Assembly: GCA_024761205.1 (NCBI GenBank)
Contig: JAMASS010000016.1
Location: 41,888-105,887, forward strand
From: Limisphaerales bacterium
GTDB lineage: Bacteria > Verrucomicrobiota > Verrucomicrobiia > Limisphaerales > AAA164-E04
Direction of reading: 5' to 3'
DNA: 64,000 nucleotides
Shown: positions 47,202 through 51,983 of the stretch, in pieces
Position numbering within the stretch: position 1 is the first letter of the stretch
Layout of the letters: each line of letters begins with the position of its first letter
Notes under the pieces: generated by a model
Database searches by the model: none
Seen by the model: only the letters and a program-made list of their open reading frames with translations
Told to the model about the DNA's origin: nothing
Made by a program: the position numbers and the translations under genes

Positions 47202-47807
47202 TCAGAGAGAGCTGTTGTGTTCGCTGAGATATTCAGCCACGCCCTCAGCTGTTTGTTTCATCCCCGGATCACCCTTGTTCCAGCCTGCCGGACAGACGGT
47301 CTCGCCAAATTCTTCCACAAACTGAAGGGCTTCGGTCATGCGGAGGTGTTCATCAATGTTGCGCCCTAGGGGGAGGTTATTGACGGTCTGGTGTTGCACG
47401 ATGCCTTGTTTGTCGATGAGGAAGGTCGCTCGCATGGCGACGCCAGCTTCGGGATGTTCAACGCCATAGTCCTGAGAGATGGAGTGCCGAGTGTCGGCAA
47501 CGATCGGGAATTTCACTGGCCCAATGCCGCCGTTCTCGATCGGGGTTTTCCGCCAGGCGCAGTGGGTGAATTGGGAATCAATCGAAACACCGACAATCTG
47601 AACGCCGAGGTCGTCAAAGCCCTCGTAGCGATGATCCATGGCAATGATTTCGGTCGGGCAGACAAAGGTGAAATCAAGCGGCCAAAAGAACAGGATGACG
47701 TGTTTGCCCCGCAGTCCGGAGAGCTTGAAGTCTTCCTTGATACTGCCATCGGGCATGGCGGCGGGGGCAACAAAATCAGGGGCTTCTCGTGCGACTAAAA
47801 CGCCCAT
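47202..47807 (-). CDS. typical 2-Cys peroxiredoxin (AhpC/Prx1 family)
   Basis: 201 residues. The peroxidatic Cys is in 'WPLDFTFVCPTEIIAMDHRY' and the resolving Cys in the C-terminal 'EFGETVCPAGWNKGDPGMKQ'. The active-site Thr and Arg context is normal ('GVAMRATFLIDKQGIVQHQT'). It reduces hydrogen peroxide and organic peroxides in the cytosol using thioredoxin-type donors. A ribosome binding site (AAAGGA) precedes ATG 47807. It is monocistronic; no ahpF is adjacent. Confidence 0.95.
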   Translation of the reverse strand: MGVLVAREAPDFVAPAAMPDGSIKEDFKLSGLRGKHVILFFWPLDFTFVCPTEIIAMDHRYEGFDDLGVQIVGVSIDSQFTHCAWRKTPIENGGIGPVKFPIVADTRHSISQDYGVEHPEAGVAMRATFLIDKQGIVQHQTVNNLPLGRNIDEHLRMTEALQFVEEFGETVCPAGWNKGDPGMKQTAEGVAEYLSEHNSSL

Positions 47808-48360
47808 TTCTATGAATCCTTTCTTGTGTGTTTGTTTTTTGTTTCTGCTTCAGCACTTCGATTGAAGGGGGTGGAGTCTAGCCTCGGTTCCGAATGCAGG
47901 CAAAGGGAAATCGACGGATGCCTTATTTTTGGAGGTGATTCAGAATGTGTGTCTGAGGAGAGAGGTTAGCATTGGATGGTTTTGTGACCTTTTTGGAGAA
48001 CAAGGGGGGGAGAGAGCGGCGAAGAATCACCGCTTCCCCGGGTCAAGATATTGATTGGAGTCGGTCTACATCGACCTGCGGTTCAAAAAGAGGAAGGGAC
48101 ACGGCACGCACTGCGATAGAAGGATTGCTCAGGGAGCATCGTGCGGACCGCCAAGGCAAGCCCCGGCCGCAAGCCATTTCAAAAAGCCCGGGGCAATCCT
48201 GGAGACTCCCGAGTGGAGCCGAGGGCATTCCTTGGCCGGACACCTGTGGGGCAATGGCCGCCGGTGTCTTTTTTTTCCGCCCCCGCTCCAAATCATTCCA
48301 AAAATTGAACTGCGCCCCTAACTATAACTCTTTTCAATTTTCCATTGCATTTTGCCGGGG
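47808..48360. other. intergenic upstream of the peroxiredoxin gene
   Basis: It holds the peroxiredoxin promoter on the minus strand. No ORF with protein character; short ORFs at 47972-48367 overlap each other on both strands and are compositionally biased. Confidence 0.4.
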
Positions 48361-48363
48361 GGT

Positions 48364-48392
48364 GTGACAATACTCACCGCGTTCCCTATAAA
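48364..48392 (+). promoter_or_regulatory. sigma-70-type promoter of the candidate small RNA
   Basis: GTGACA (48364-48369) and TATAAA (48387-48392) are separated by exactly 17 bp, a near-consensus -35/-10 pair. A start at about 48399 would give a transcript of about 70 nt up to the terminator T-run. Confidence 0.6.
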
Positions 48393-48398
48393 AGGATA

Positions 48399-48468
48399 GT
48401 CCTCCTGAGTCGGAGGATGGCGGGTTCTGGTGTTATTAACCGTGTGTCTCCAGAGCCCGTTTTTTTTT
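48399..48468 (+). ncRNA. candidate small RNA, two hairpins, about 70 nt
   Basis: The predicted RNA begins just after the TATAAA box. Hairpin 1 is TCCTCC-TGAGTC-GGAGGA (48400-48417). Hairpin 2 is CGGGTTCTGG paired with CCAGAGCCCG (48421-48430 and 48450-48459; one G-T pair), followed directly by nine T residues (48460-48468), a textbook intrinsic terminator. The TCCTCC run is complementary to Shine-Dalgarno sequences and the RNA holds several GGA motifs, so it could act on translation or bind a CsrA-like protein. No significant ORF fits between promoter and terminator. No known RNA family is recognised. Confidence 0.6.
48421..48468 (+). terminator. intrinsic terminator of the candidate small RNA
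   Basis: A ten-pair stem CGGGTTCTGG / CCAGAGCCCG with a 19-base loop and an uninterrupted run of nine T. Confidence 0.8.
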
Positions 48469-48469
48469 C

Positions 48470-50486
48470 GGACGCTCAATTGTTGCTTGGAATATAGCAG
48501 GCCACGGCGCTAGGAGCTTCACGGCTGTCACGGAGATATCACTGAATTGTCTCCGGTTTCTTAAGTTGACCTTCCGCAAACTTAGCGAATCTCAATCCAG
48601 AGGTGGCATCTTCAAAATCACCATCGACGTCTCCGCGCATGGTTGACCCGCCGAACCGATGCGGCTCATCCTGTGGTTTTCGTGCTGTTTGCCGTGGCGT
48701 CATCATTTAGCTTTGTGTGATGCCTTTCGGAAGCCGTTTGCAGCGACGACCTTTGACAAACGATTTGAATGGCGTGCCGGACTCCATTTCGCGCTCCGAA
48801 GCGTCTGTTGAGACAGCTTTTAAGCAGTGCGGCCGGTTGGTTTCCGGTGGCCGCCGCCGATTTTACGGGCTCATTTTTACCCACTCACCCCAAGATCATC
48901 AGTAAAGGCAGCGCAATCCCGTTTTGCCGGCCCGGGGCCGCACCTTGCGGGAAAACCGACTGTGGTCTCGTGGTTCTAAATCCCTCTCATGCCGCCTTCG
49001 CATCGTGGGAAATGGCTTGAATGGAACGCCGTCCTCCCCCTCCCCCATTGGCGGTTTGCCTAGGCGGGGGCCCGTCCTCATCGGTAAGCCTCGGGGAGGT
49101 TTGGCGGGCTGTTTGTCTCATTCCAAGAGCGAGCGCGCAGGGGGAGAGGGTGTGAGCTCCCGCTCCGGCCGGCAGCGAGGCCGTTGTTGAGCCCGCGCGA
49201 AGGCACTCCAAGAAGCGGCTGATCGAGCAGGTGAGCGCCACCTGACTCATGCCCAATAGCGTTCTGCTCCGGATGAGTGCCATCTGTGCGCCAATTGCCT
49301 GCCGCCGGGAGATGCGCCTGCGGGCTGCGAGGCATTGCAAGACAGCGGCGGTGGCGCACGGGAGGCGCGTTTTCCGCCGCCCACCAACGGCGGGAGAAGG
49401 GAGACAGGAAGTAATATGAAAGCCGCAATTGAAATCGAAGGCAAACGCGCTAGGCGGCGGGGATGAGGATTGAAGGAGGCTCGACGATGGGCCGACTGGT
49501 AAGCGGCGGCATTGAGAGCGCCTTTCCCATTTTGTGCCGCAGGCGGGGGGCTGGTTTTTCAAGGCAATTCATCCGCTTCGAGAATGTGCCCCGGCATCCG
49601 CCGAGGCCCCCGGAAAGCCCGCCCCCGAGGGTTTAAGTCTTTCCAAGCCTTTCCCAAGGGTTTCTTGAACTTCCTGCCGCCGAGGTTTTTGTAATGGAAA
49701 TTCCCGAAGTCCTGGTCGCCATTCCACAAATCGTGACTGACCGGAAACATATGCCTTACTTCAAAGTCCGGCCAAATCTAGCCAGTATTCCTACGTCTGC
49801 ATCTATCCCGGCCACGGACAGTTGATGCGCACGGCATTTGAACGGTGATGTCGATCAGCAGATCCACCGTGTTGATCGCTAGATGACCAAACTTTTTGCT
49901 AGATAAGCGGACACGATCAGTCCAACTACCGACCCCACTCCGGAGAGAAATTTCGGGGAGCCATCTCCCGATTTAGCGGCATCGACAGACACTAAGAAGA
50001 GGATGAAACCGAGGGCTCAACAAAAAATCAGGTAGCATCTATGAAGGCGCGGCAATCTTTGAAGGAGGTGCTTGCGCGGATGGCGTTGAGTTTCGCCTGT
50101 CGACGGGCTGAGGAGCATGCCACACACTATGGAGTCGGTCCGCTTTCGCTTTTCCCCTTGATGAGATTCCGCATCCCCCAACGTGTTTCTCATTTGACTT
50201 ATCCGCCGCCCTCTCCTTCTGATGGTCTCCCACCGAGGATTCGGGCGTTTTCTTCGAATCCGGTTTTTCGACCACCAATATTGTTTCCGAGCCGTAGGAG
50301 GGGCAGGCAACCGTTTCGCTGATGCGGGAGGCATCAAATTCCAAAACCACCGGGTAGTGGCTGCATTGGGACCCCATTTGGCTGATAGCGGATTCGGGGT
50401 GATTTCACGGCTTGCCGGCGGCAATGTTTTCCGGCGGCGCTTCCAACCAATAGCCAGCTATGGGCAACGGTGGGATTCTCTCGCGC
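48470..50486. other. 2-kb gene desert, GC-rich, no gene recognised
   Basis: ORFs on both strands overlap heavily and none shows domain-like sequence. The minus-strand 191-residue ORF at 48987-49562 is the longest but is rich in Pro, Gly, Ser and Arg, as expected of chance ORFs in GC-rich DNA. The bases just after the DUF1501 stop (49.9-50.4 kb) may be an old coding relic on the minus strand, but I cannot assign it. Confidence 0.4.
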
Positions 50487-51983
50487 CTATGCGATCAAAT
50501 CGTGGATCACGTGACCATGAACGTCAGTCAATCGAAAGTCGCGCCCTTGATATCGGTAAGTTAAGCGCGTGTGATCGATGCCCAACAGATGCAGAATCGT
50601 AGCGTTTAGATCGTGGATATGCATTGTTCCCGGAGTCCAATGCTCCTTGTTGGGCTGAGGATCCATGGGGGCGCCGTCTTCATTCGCGATGTTGTAGCTG
50701 TAGTCATCCGTCTTGCCATAGGTAATTCCCGGCTTCACTCCCCCGCCGGCCATCCACACGGTGAAACAACGTGGGTGGTGATCGCGCCCGTAGTTCTCTC
50801 GTTTTAGATTGCCCTGACAATACGCCGTCCGACCGAACTCACCGCCCCAGATCACCAAGGTATCATCCAACATGCCCCGTCGCTTCAGATCCTTGATCAG
50901 AGCGGCGCACCCCTGATCAATATCCTTGCACTGCGATTCATGCTCTTTCGGCAGATTGCCGTGGGCATCCCAACCCCGATGGAAGATTTGAATGTTCCGT
51001 ACGCCTCGCTCCGCCAAACGCCGCGCATTGAGACAGCAGGCGGCAAAGGTGCCCGGCTTTCTTGCCGCTTCTCCGTAGAGCTCAAAAGTCGAGTTGCTTT
51101 CGCCAGATAGATCCATGAGTTCCGGTACGGACGCCTGCATTTTATAAGCCATCTCATGCTGCCGGATGCGCGACAAGACTTCGGGATCGGCGAAGCGCTC
51201 ATATTGTCCTTGATTGATAGCGGCGAGCGCATCAAGTTGAGCACGCCGATCCGTGCGGCTCACACCCACCGGATTACTCAGGAACAAAACCGGATCCCCT
51301 TCACTGCGGAGCAAAATACCCTGATGATCCGAGGGCATGAAACCAGTACCCCAGAGACGATTAAACAAGCTTTGTTCAGGGAAACTGCTTTTCGCGTGCA
51401 TTACCACGTAGCCGGGAAGGTCTTCATTGAGACTGCCCAAGCCGTAGCTCACCCAAGCGCCTAAACTAGGACGCCCCGGAATCTGGCTCCCCGTTTGAAT
51501 GTAAGTAATGGCCGGATCATGATTAATGGCTTCGGTGAAGGCCGTGTGTACCACGCAAAGATCTTTGACGACGGTCGCGGTATGCGGCAGCAACTCGCTC
51601 ACCCAGACGCCCTTGTCGTGGTTCTCCTGCAGCGTGAATTTGTATTTGCTGGGGGCCAGAGGGAATCCGTTCTTCTGATTCGCAGTCATGCCGGTCACTC
51701 GCTGCCCGCCGCGAATGTGATCGGGCAATTGTTCCCCGAACATGTCGTTCATCTTGGGCTTGTAATCCCAAAGATCGTGGTGACTAGGACCGCCGCTCAT
51801 GAACAAGTAGATCACATGGTTGGCTTTGGCGGCATGGTGCAGACCACCGCTCTCCGCACCGGAAGCGCGTAACAAACCGCTACCCAACAAATCGGCCAGT
51901 GCCGCCGTTCCCAAACCCAATGCCGAGCGGCCGAAAAAGTGCCGCCGGGTCATCATCAATGCGTATTCACGTTGTGGGTCCAT
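50487..51983 (-). CDS. DUF1501-family exported protein
   Basis: 498 residues. A twin-arginine-type leader ('MTRRHFFGRSALGLGTAALA') is followed by the DUF1501 (sulfatase/alkaline-phosphatase-like fold) sequence: 'VIYLFMSGGPSHHDLWDYKP', 'SELLPHTATVVKDLCVVHTA', 'HDPAITYIQTGSQIPGRPSL', 'VIWGGEFGRTAYCQGN', 'DHHPRCFTVWMAGGGVKPGI' and 'HIHDLNATILHLLGIDHTRL'. These proteins are almost always coded beside DUF1553 partners in Planctomycetes and Verrucomicrobia. The biochemical role is not established. It starts 22 bases after the DUF1553 gene, so the two form an operon. Confidence 0.93.
   Translation of the reverse strand: MDPQREYALMMTRRHFFGRSALGLGTAALADLLGSGLLRASGAESGGLHHAAKANHVIYLFMSGGPSHHDLWDYKPKMNDMFGEQLPDHIRGGQRVTGMTANQKNGFPLAPSKYKFTLQENHDKGVWVSELLPHTATVVKDLCVVHTAFTEAINHDPAITYIQTGSQIPGRPSLGAWVSYGLGSLNEDLPGYVVMHAKSSFPEQSLFNRLWGTGFMPSDHQGILLRSEGDPVLFLSNPVGVSRTDRRAQLDALAAINQGQYERFADPEVLSRIRQHEMAYKMQASVPELMDLSGESNSTFELYGEAARKPGTFAACCLNARRLAERGVRNIQIFHRGWDAHGNLPKEHESQCKDIDQGCAALIKDLKRRGMLDDTLVIWGGEFGRTAYCQGNLKRENYGRDHHPRCFTVWMAGGGVKPGITYGKTDDYSYNIANEDGAPMDPQPNKEHWTPGTMHIHDLNATILHLLGIDHTRLTYRYQGRDFRLTDVHGHVIHDLIA

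Follow-up and report, generated by a model that had tools for sequence, protein, structure and literature searches.

A small RNA gene in a verrucomicrobial genome belongs to an uncatalogued two-hairpin family with conserved loops

Introduction

Small RNAs of the LhrC/RsaE type carry UCCC-containing anti-Shine-Dalgarno seeds, and RRM domains commonly bind single-stranded RNA that is rich in GU. LhrC is named among multicopy small RNAs (PMC11697453). Bacteroides also has an RRM protein, RbpB, which binds FopS, a family of 14 paralogous small RNAs (PMC11697453). Catalogued small RNAs are scarce in the Planctomycetes-Verrucomicrobia-Chlamydiae group as a whole, for which a review's table holds 8 (PMC9029176).

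We analysed a 64,000-nt stretch of verrucomicrobial DNA (hereafter the window, in which all coordinates below are positions). A preliminary description had pointed to a self-contained small RNA gene within it. Judged from its sequence and that of its relatives, the flagged spot is a genuine small RNA gene of an uncatalogued two-hairpin family. The preliminary description was right about the self-contained RNA gene and wrong about which part of it matters; the function discussed below is one that we infer.

Structure and context of the element in the window

The predicted RNA is ~88 nt long and lies on the plus strand at 48381..48468, its 5′ end placed by the conserved promoter and leader and its 3′ end by a T-run. 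The segment folds with –33.5 kcal/mol (z –4.5). For 48395-48470 the energy is –31.8 kcal/mol, whereas shuffles average –17.8 (z –4.61), and 0 of 200 shuffles folded as well. An 18-position 5′ leader starting with GUUCCC, a possible seed (48381..48398, plus strand), is followed by hairpin 1 (GUCCUCC/GGAGGAU, 48399..48418, plus strand), which is predicted by the fold and shows both-side changes in all stem pairs across family members. Its arms TCCTCC (48400-48405) and GGAGGA (48412-48417) are directly visible on the plus strand, and its loop contains GAGU (48407-48410, plus strand). Hairpin 2, which is also the terminator stem (GGCGGGUUCUGG ... CCAGAGCCCGUU, 48419..48461, plus strand), is supported by the fold, by covariation and by the match of the element to the covariance models R1 and R2 described below (E 7.1e-17). 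It presents the conserved apical loop AACCGUGUGU (48438..48447, plus strand). The T-run of nine T that completes the intrinsic terminator (48460..48468, plus strand) is again directly visible, and its first two T are able to pair at the base of hairpin 2. A simple scanner missed the terminator of the window copy because its loop exceeds 8 nt. The parts listed in the preliminary description, namely GTGACA/TATAAA with a 17-nt spacer, TCCTCC/GGAGGA, a GC-rich hairpin and nine T, are all found where it placed them.

The element lies between a peroxiredoxin gene (47202-47807) and a DUF1501 gene (50487-51983), and the interval 47808-50486 contains no recognisable gene. Tested ORFs in this interval gave no Pfam matches, so the earlier characterisation of the region as gene-free holds. 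A small ORF starting at ATG 48417 was considered and rejected: GGAGG precedes it directly with zero spacing, in L002, the closest relative, this frame runs into a stop after six codons, and the differences in loop length are not multiples of three.

A dispersed repeat, some 85-130 bp long, has one copy at 48144-48268, immediately before the small RNA gene. About 15 further copies with 72-86% identity occur in the window's genome, and the repeat is unrelated to the small RNA. The copy in the window ends in a GGACACC...GGTGTC hairpin followed by a T-run. No clear match to this repeat was found in 39 relatives.

Distribution and novelty of the family

A nucleotide search of relatives returned three homologous stretches. 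One of them, with 77% identity over 137 nt, comes from a genome of the window's genus; in the other two, one from the same family and one from another family, the hairpins alone match. Once placed on the same strand, the window copy and its three homologs can be aligned across the two hairpins; each stem shows compensatory changes, while the loop TAAnyCGTGTGT is unchanged in all four. A covariance model built from these four sequences (R1, cut-off E ≤ 0.01) matches 142/320 genomes of the window's order. From 90 members we then built a second model (R2, cut-off E ≤ 1e-4), which matches 197/320 genomes and 66/118 genera of the order, with 1-8 copies in each genome. The covariance search across Verrucomicrobiota suggested in the preliminary description has thus returned a large set of relatives, in which the hairpins, the loops and the T-run recur, in agreement with a self-contained small RNA gene that ends in an intrinsic terminator.

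In an even 388-genome sample of the phylum, R2 matched two genomes, the window's own and another from its order, and none outside the order. An exact pattern search in 84,980 GTDB species genomes gave 28 matches, all in Verrucomicrobiota metagenome-assembled genomes (MAGs), several of them named Pedosphaera. As far as sampled, the RNA family is confined to one Verrucomicrobiota order (Pedosphaera-like lineages). Some RNA-bearing GTDB MAGs (L122, L125, L126, L129, L131, L133 and L135) are titled 'Akkermansia muciniphila', and these titles look wrong.

The family is absent from the catalogues that we searched, in line with the earlier statement that no family matched. At gathering score, Rfam 15 finds two tRNAs only in the whole window; at E ≤ 5, the element region gives only chance matches to eukaryotic snRNAs and snoRNAs; and at the relatives' loci Rfam reports nothing at the element. 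No description of such an RNA was found in the literature (open-licence papers).

The window's genome contains two clear copies, whose stems differ and whose loops, GAGU and AACCGUGUGU, are the same. No copy was found in the complete genome G001 (best E 5.5), which belongs to the window's genus; hence the RNA is dispensable there and the genus does not strictly require it. That a genome may carry several copies at separate places, and that a different, unrelated dispersed repeat lies just upstream of the window copy, could suggest a dispersed mobile or REP-like DNA repeat. However, copies from the same genome differ in their stems and keep pairing and loops, and some copies occupy conserved loci across genera, so that we consider a mobile repeat very improbable. 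Carriage by viruses was also considered, and the exact pattern has no match in IMG/VR viral contigs.

Covariation and conserved loops

When 90 members are aligned to the model, pairing holds in 98.5% of cells, 15/18 pairs are doubly changed, and the covariation score is 0.552 versus 0.229 for shuffles. Since a model-fitted alignment leans toward its structure, the count was repeated, with the fold of the window copy as reference, on 63 diverse members that MAFFT had aligned without structure. Here 90.3% of cells pair; sliding the partner by 1-3 columns lowers this to 45-58%. Changes on both sides are seen in 17/23 pairs; the compensatory changes that the preliminary description had named as a check on the two stems are thus present in an alignment blind to structure. 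Judged by these comparisons the structure is under selection, and we hold it as nearly certain that the family is a real structured RNA family.

The most constant parts of the RNA, by alignment, are the hairpin loops GNGU and CCGUGUGU and not a ribosome-binding-site-like sequence. Hairpin 1 is typically of 7 bp with a GNGU loop (GAGU in 29 and GUGU in 26, together 55/92 assignable 4-nt loops). Hairpin 2 shows strong covariation above an invariant CGG/CCG core, and its apical loop, usually AACCGUGUGU or AUCCGUGUGU, has GUGUG in 104/104 members, with CC or CT in front of it in most; members were found with models containing the loop sequence, so this apparent conservation is partly ascertainment and is inflated. 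The near-invariant surface of the RNA consists of these two loops, GNGU (hairpin 1) and AAnCCGUGUGU (hairpin 2). In a divergent f42 member hairpin 1 is completely different (GCCCAAU-GAGA-AUUGGGC), yet AAACCGUGUGU is kept.

This pattern bears on the proposal that the RNA acts as an anti-Shine-Dalgarno RNA via TCCTCC and/or as a CsrA sponge via GGA. Both TCCTCC and GGAGGA are present in the window copy; however, both are base-paired and neither is conserved in sequence. The TCCTCC arm, which had been supposed to pair with ribosome binding sites, is buried in a stem of 6-7 bp and varies freely across the 104 members of the family compared (UCCUUCC, UCUGCCC, UCUUCGC, GCCCAAU and others), with pairing kept and sequence not; being paired and variable, it does not support an anti-Shine-Dalgarno role. 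GGA, supposed to be bound by a CsrA-like protein, sits in a paired arm and not in a loop, and csrA (PF02599) gave no match in the window's genome (G000, 95% complete), while 10/20 genomes searched have one; a CsrA role is therefore not supported either. We assign this proposal only a slight residual probability.

Promoter and 5′ end

Two candidate promoters precede the hairpins. GTGACA (48364..48369, plus strand) and TATAAA (48387..48392, plus strand), put forward in the preliminary description, are present with a 17-nt spacer and have the best sigma70-like score upstream of the hairpins. This pair outscores the second candidate against the E. coli consensus, and 3.5% of shuffles are as good. 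It would start the RNA at ~48399, approximately at hairpin 1. A promoter-like site is found at the position equivalent to GTGACA in polA-linked paralogs of the window's family (L016, L017, L024 and L028); in the closest relative, L002, the equivalent site is not good. The counterparts of TATAAA are TATAAG in L002 and AATATT in L010.

The second candidate comprises a putative –35 element TTGCAT (48345..48350, plus strand) and a putative –10 element CAATAC (48368..48373, plus strand), separated by a 17-nt spacer; CAATAC lies 7 nt before GTTCCC and is a weak match to the consensus. From here the RNA would start at GUUCCC, ~48381. In 12 members GTYCCC or a close variant (ATTCCC, GTCTCCC) stands 9-18 nt ahead of the modelled core, whose first element is hairpin 1. 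TTGNNN is conserved at 34-36 nt upstream of GTYCCC in 12/12 of them, with a spacer of 16-18 nt, and the shared site can be written TTGNNN-17-yA; these members come from families f1 (the window's), f36 and f7, and the nine f7 sequences are related and so not independent. A weak –10 element is located 6-7 nt before GTYCCC (CATAGT, TATTGT, TACCTA, TAAATC, TAGACA, TAACTC and others). The GUYCCC leader is absent from other paralog groups.

A simple scanner detected no consensus promoter at the element, and with generic sigma70 scoring of upstream regions only 9/104 members stand out from shuffles; promoters were therefore judged by position conservation instead. Both candidates are possible, and the upstream TTGCAT/CAATAC is favoured because it is conserved in position. 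For the promoter of the preliminary description this means that its presence and its score stand, while its role in starting the RNA is doubtful.

Genomic neighbourhoods of the copies

Copies of the RNA adjoin diverse genes. In f1 they are located between polA and an AIR-synthase-like gene (AIRS), and in f7 they either adjoin ribBA or have mnmG on one side and a pseudopilin (N_methyl) gene on the other. HupE genes adjoin copies in f15 and f36, DUF5690 adjoins copies in G002 and in f61, and a glycosyltransferase is also among the neighbours. All four orientations of flanking genes occur. At about a dozen f7 loci (L022, L031, L043, L052, L054 and others) the pseudopilin gene follows the RNA on the same strand.

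The varied neighbours and the four orientations argue against a cis-regulatory leader. One could nevertheless propose an attenuator or riboswitch, in which the terminator hairpin controls the downstream gene, for example the f7 pseudopilin, since a pseudopilin gene lies on the same strand within 800 nt downstream in 13/87 distinct members, often with mnmG or ribBA on the opposite side. However, downstream genes of other members differ or point the other way, nothing protein-like follows for 2 kb downstream in the window, and no alternative antiterminator pairing was noticed, all of which makes such control in cis highly unlikely.

A specialised 3′-end element, that is, a conserved intrinsic terminator with a stabilising upstream hairpin that forms the ends of mRNAs and of some short transcripts and has no role in trans, has more in its favour. 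The T-run is one-directional, as follows from the T excess after the stem (mean 7 T in 12 nt) over A before hairpin 1 (3.7 A in 12 nt). The upstream gene is on the same strand in 66/99 cases, and about 13/104 copies begin 0-20 nt after the upstream stop codon; some of the upstream genes of these stop-adjacent copies have LamG or Reelin-like surface domains. These ~13 copies could be 3′UTR-derived RNAs or plain terminators. On the other hand, a terminator needs neither a near-invariant 10-nt loop nor an additional hairpin whose tetraloop is conserved; the copy numbers, 2 in the window's genome and 1-8 per genome, fall far short of those of a general terminator; and many copies are free-standing, some of them with a promoter that is conserved. 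We therefore view a pure 3′-end element as an unlikely explanation, though one that keeps some weight.

A probable role in trans and a possible protein partner

Because the neighbours of copies differ and all four flanking orientations occur, we think that the RNA probably acts in trans. One form of such action is direct base-pairing, in which the CCGUGUGU loop and/or the GUYCCC 5′ end would pair with mRNA start regions. The conserved loop is large and accessible, the 5′ end is also conserved, and the multicopy RNAs FopS, LhrC and OmrA/B work in this way (PMC11697453). However, the genome shows no enrichment of the loop complement ACACACGG (67 sites versus 74 for the reversed pattern), and GUYCCC is limited to one paralog group. 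Of the 60 ACACACGG sites examined, 6 lie ≤60 nt from a putative start, where by estimate ~3 are expected. We hold base-pairing as a possible mode of minor probability; a partner that is an RNA-binding protein rather than one fixed mRNA target is more likely.

Overall, the comparisons incline us, with some reserve, to a multicopy trans-acting small RNA of Hfq-less bacteria, whose loops would be read by a shared partner with an RRM protein as the leading candidate. The RNA opens with a predicted short 5′ tail (GUUCCC... in the window copy); then come a 7-bp hairpin whose loop is GNGU, a long terminator hairpin whose large loop shows AAnCCGUGUGU, and oligo-U. Under this proposal two related loops, C-GNGU-G and CCGUGUGU, would be presented to one shared cellular partner, and the variable 5′ tail would give each copy its own role. 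That the loops are read by a protein we rate at about even chances. That this protein is an RRM protein, which would act as RbpB does with FopS in Bacteroides, is a more tentative suggestion that draws on analogy.

RRM proteins are the leading candidate because Hfq is absent and RRM proteins are nearly universal in these genomes. Hfq (PF17209) was found in 0/20 genomes, with positive controls, which separates the family from the Hfq-dependent class of small RNAs. RRM_1 (PF00076) is present in 55/58 genomes, including one in the window's genome. RRM proteins also occur in genomes in which the RNA was not detected (e.g. G001, G020 and G021), so co-occurrence does not single them out. Autoregulation of RRM genes via GTGTG in their leaders was considered and rejected, the motif being absent from the leaders checked.

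Throughout the order, RRM genes have a conserved 5′ leader of their own in common, about CTTCAGGTGAACNTNGTTCAGTGATGATTTGAAACCCGRNGGTCGGGAACAGTC, which is possibly an uncatalogued regulatory leader and has no Rfam match. It is seen ~160 nt upstream of RRM genes (L170, L173, L178, L181, L187 and L188), and L169 is the locus in the window's genome. GGGAAC in this leader complements GUUCCC, with which the window RNA is predicted to start, and not the GUCCCC of f7; the complementarity may be chance.

Comparison with known systems

The family is large, well supported and uncatalogued, and belongs to largely uncultured bacteria without detectable Hfq. An 88-nt RNA with two near-invariant loops offers a concrete bait for the protein that handles small RNAs in such Hfq-less bacteria.

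Small RNAs of the LhrC/RsaE type resemble the family in being multicopy, and a C-rich GUYCCC stands at the predicted 5′ end of one of its paralog groups. Unlike in that type, the C-rich motif is missing from the other paralogs, and the CCGUGUGU loop is the conserved part.

FopS/GibS with RbpB in Bacteroides thetaiotaomicron is alike in that the RNAs are multicopy and paralogous and end in an intrinsic terminator, and in that the host encodes RRM proteins. FopS has a single-stranded 5′ R1 seed and one terminator hairpin (PMC11697453), whereas the family described here has two conserved hairpins with GNGU and CCGUGUGU loops, and FopS/GibS show no sequence or Rfam match to it. As a FopS-like mode would imply, an RRM protein (the single PF00076 match in G000) is encoded in the same genome, and the RRM partnership is here a candidate only.

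CsrB, RsmY and RsmZ share with the family a short motif repeated in hairpin loops, an intrinsic terminator and several copies per genome. In CsrB/RsmZ the motif exposed in the loops is ANGGA, whereas here it is GNGU/GUGUG, and the window's genome is without a detected csrA. It is conceivable, though we think it rather unlikely, that the paired GUGUG-type loops of the paralogous RNAs titrate or guide an RRM protein in an order-specific global post-transcriptional system. Such a system, if true, would be a bacterial counterpart of CsrA/CsrB, in which an RRM protein and a GU-rich motif replace CsrA and GGA.
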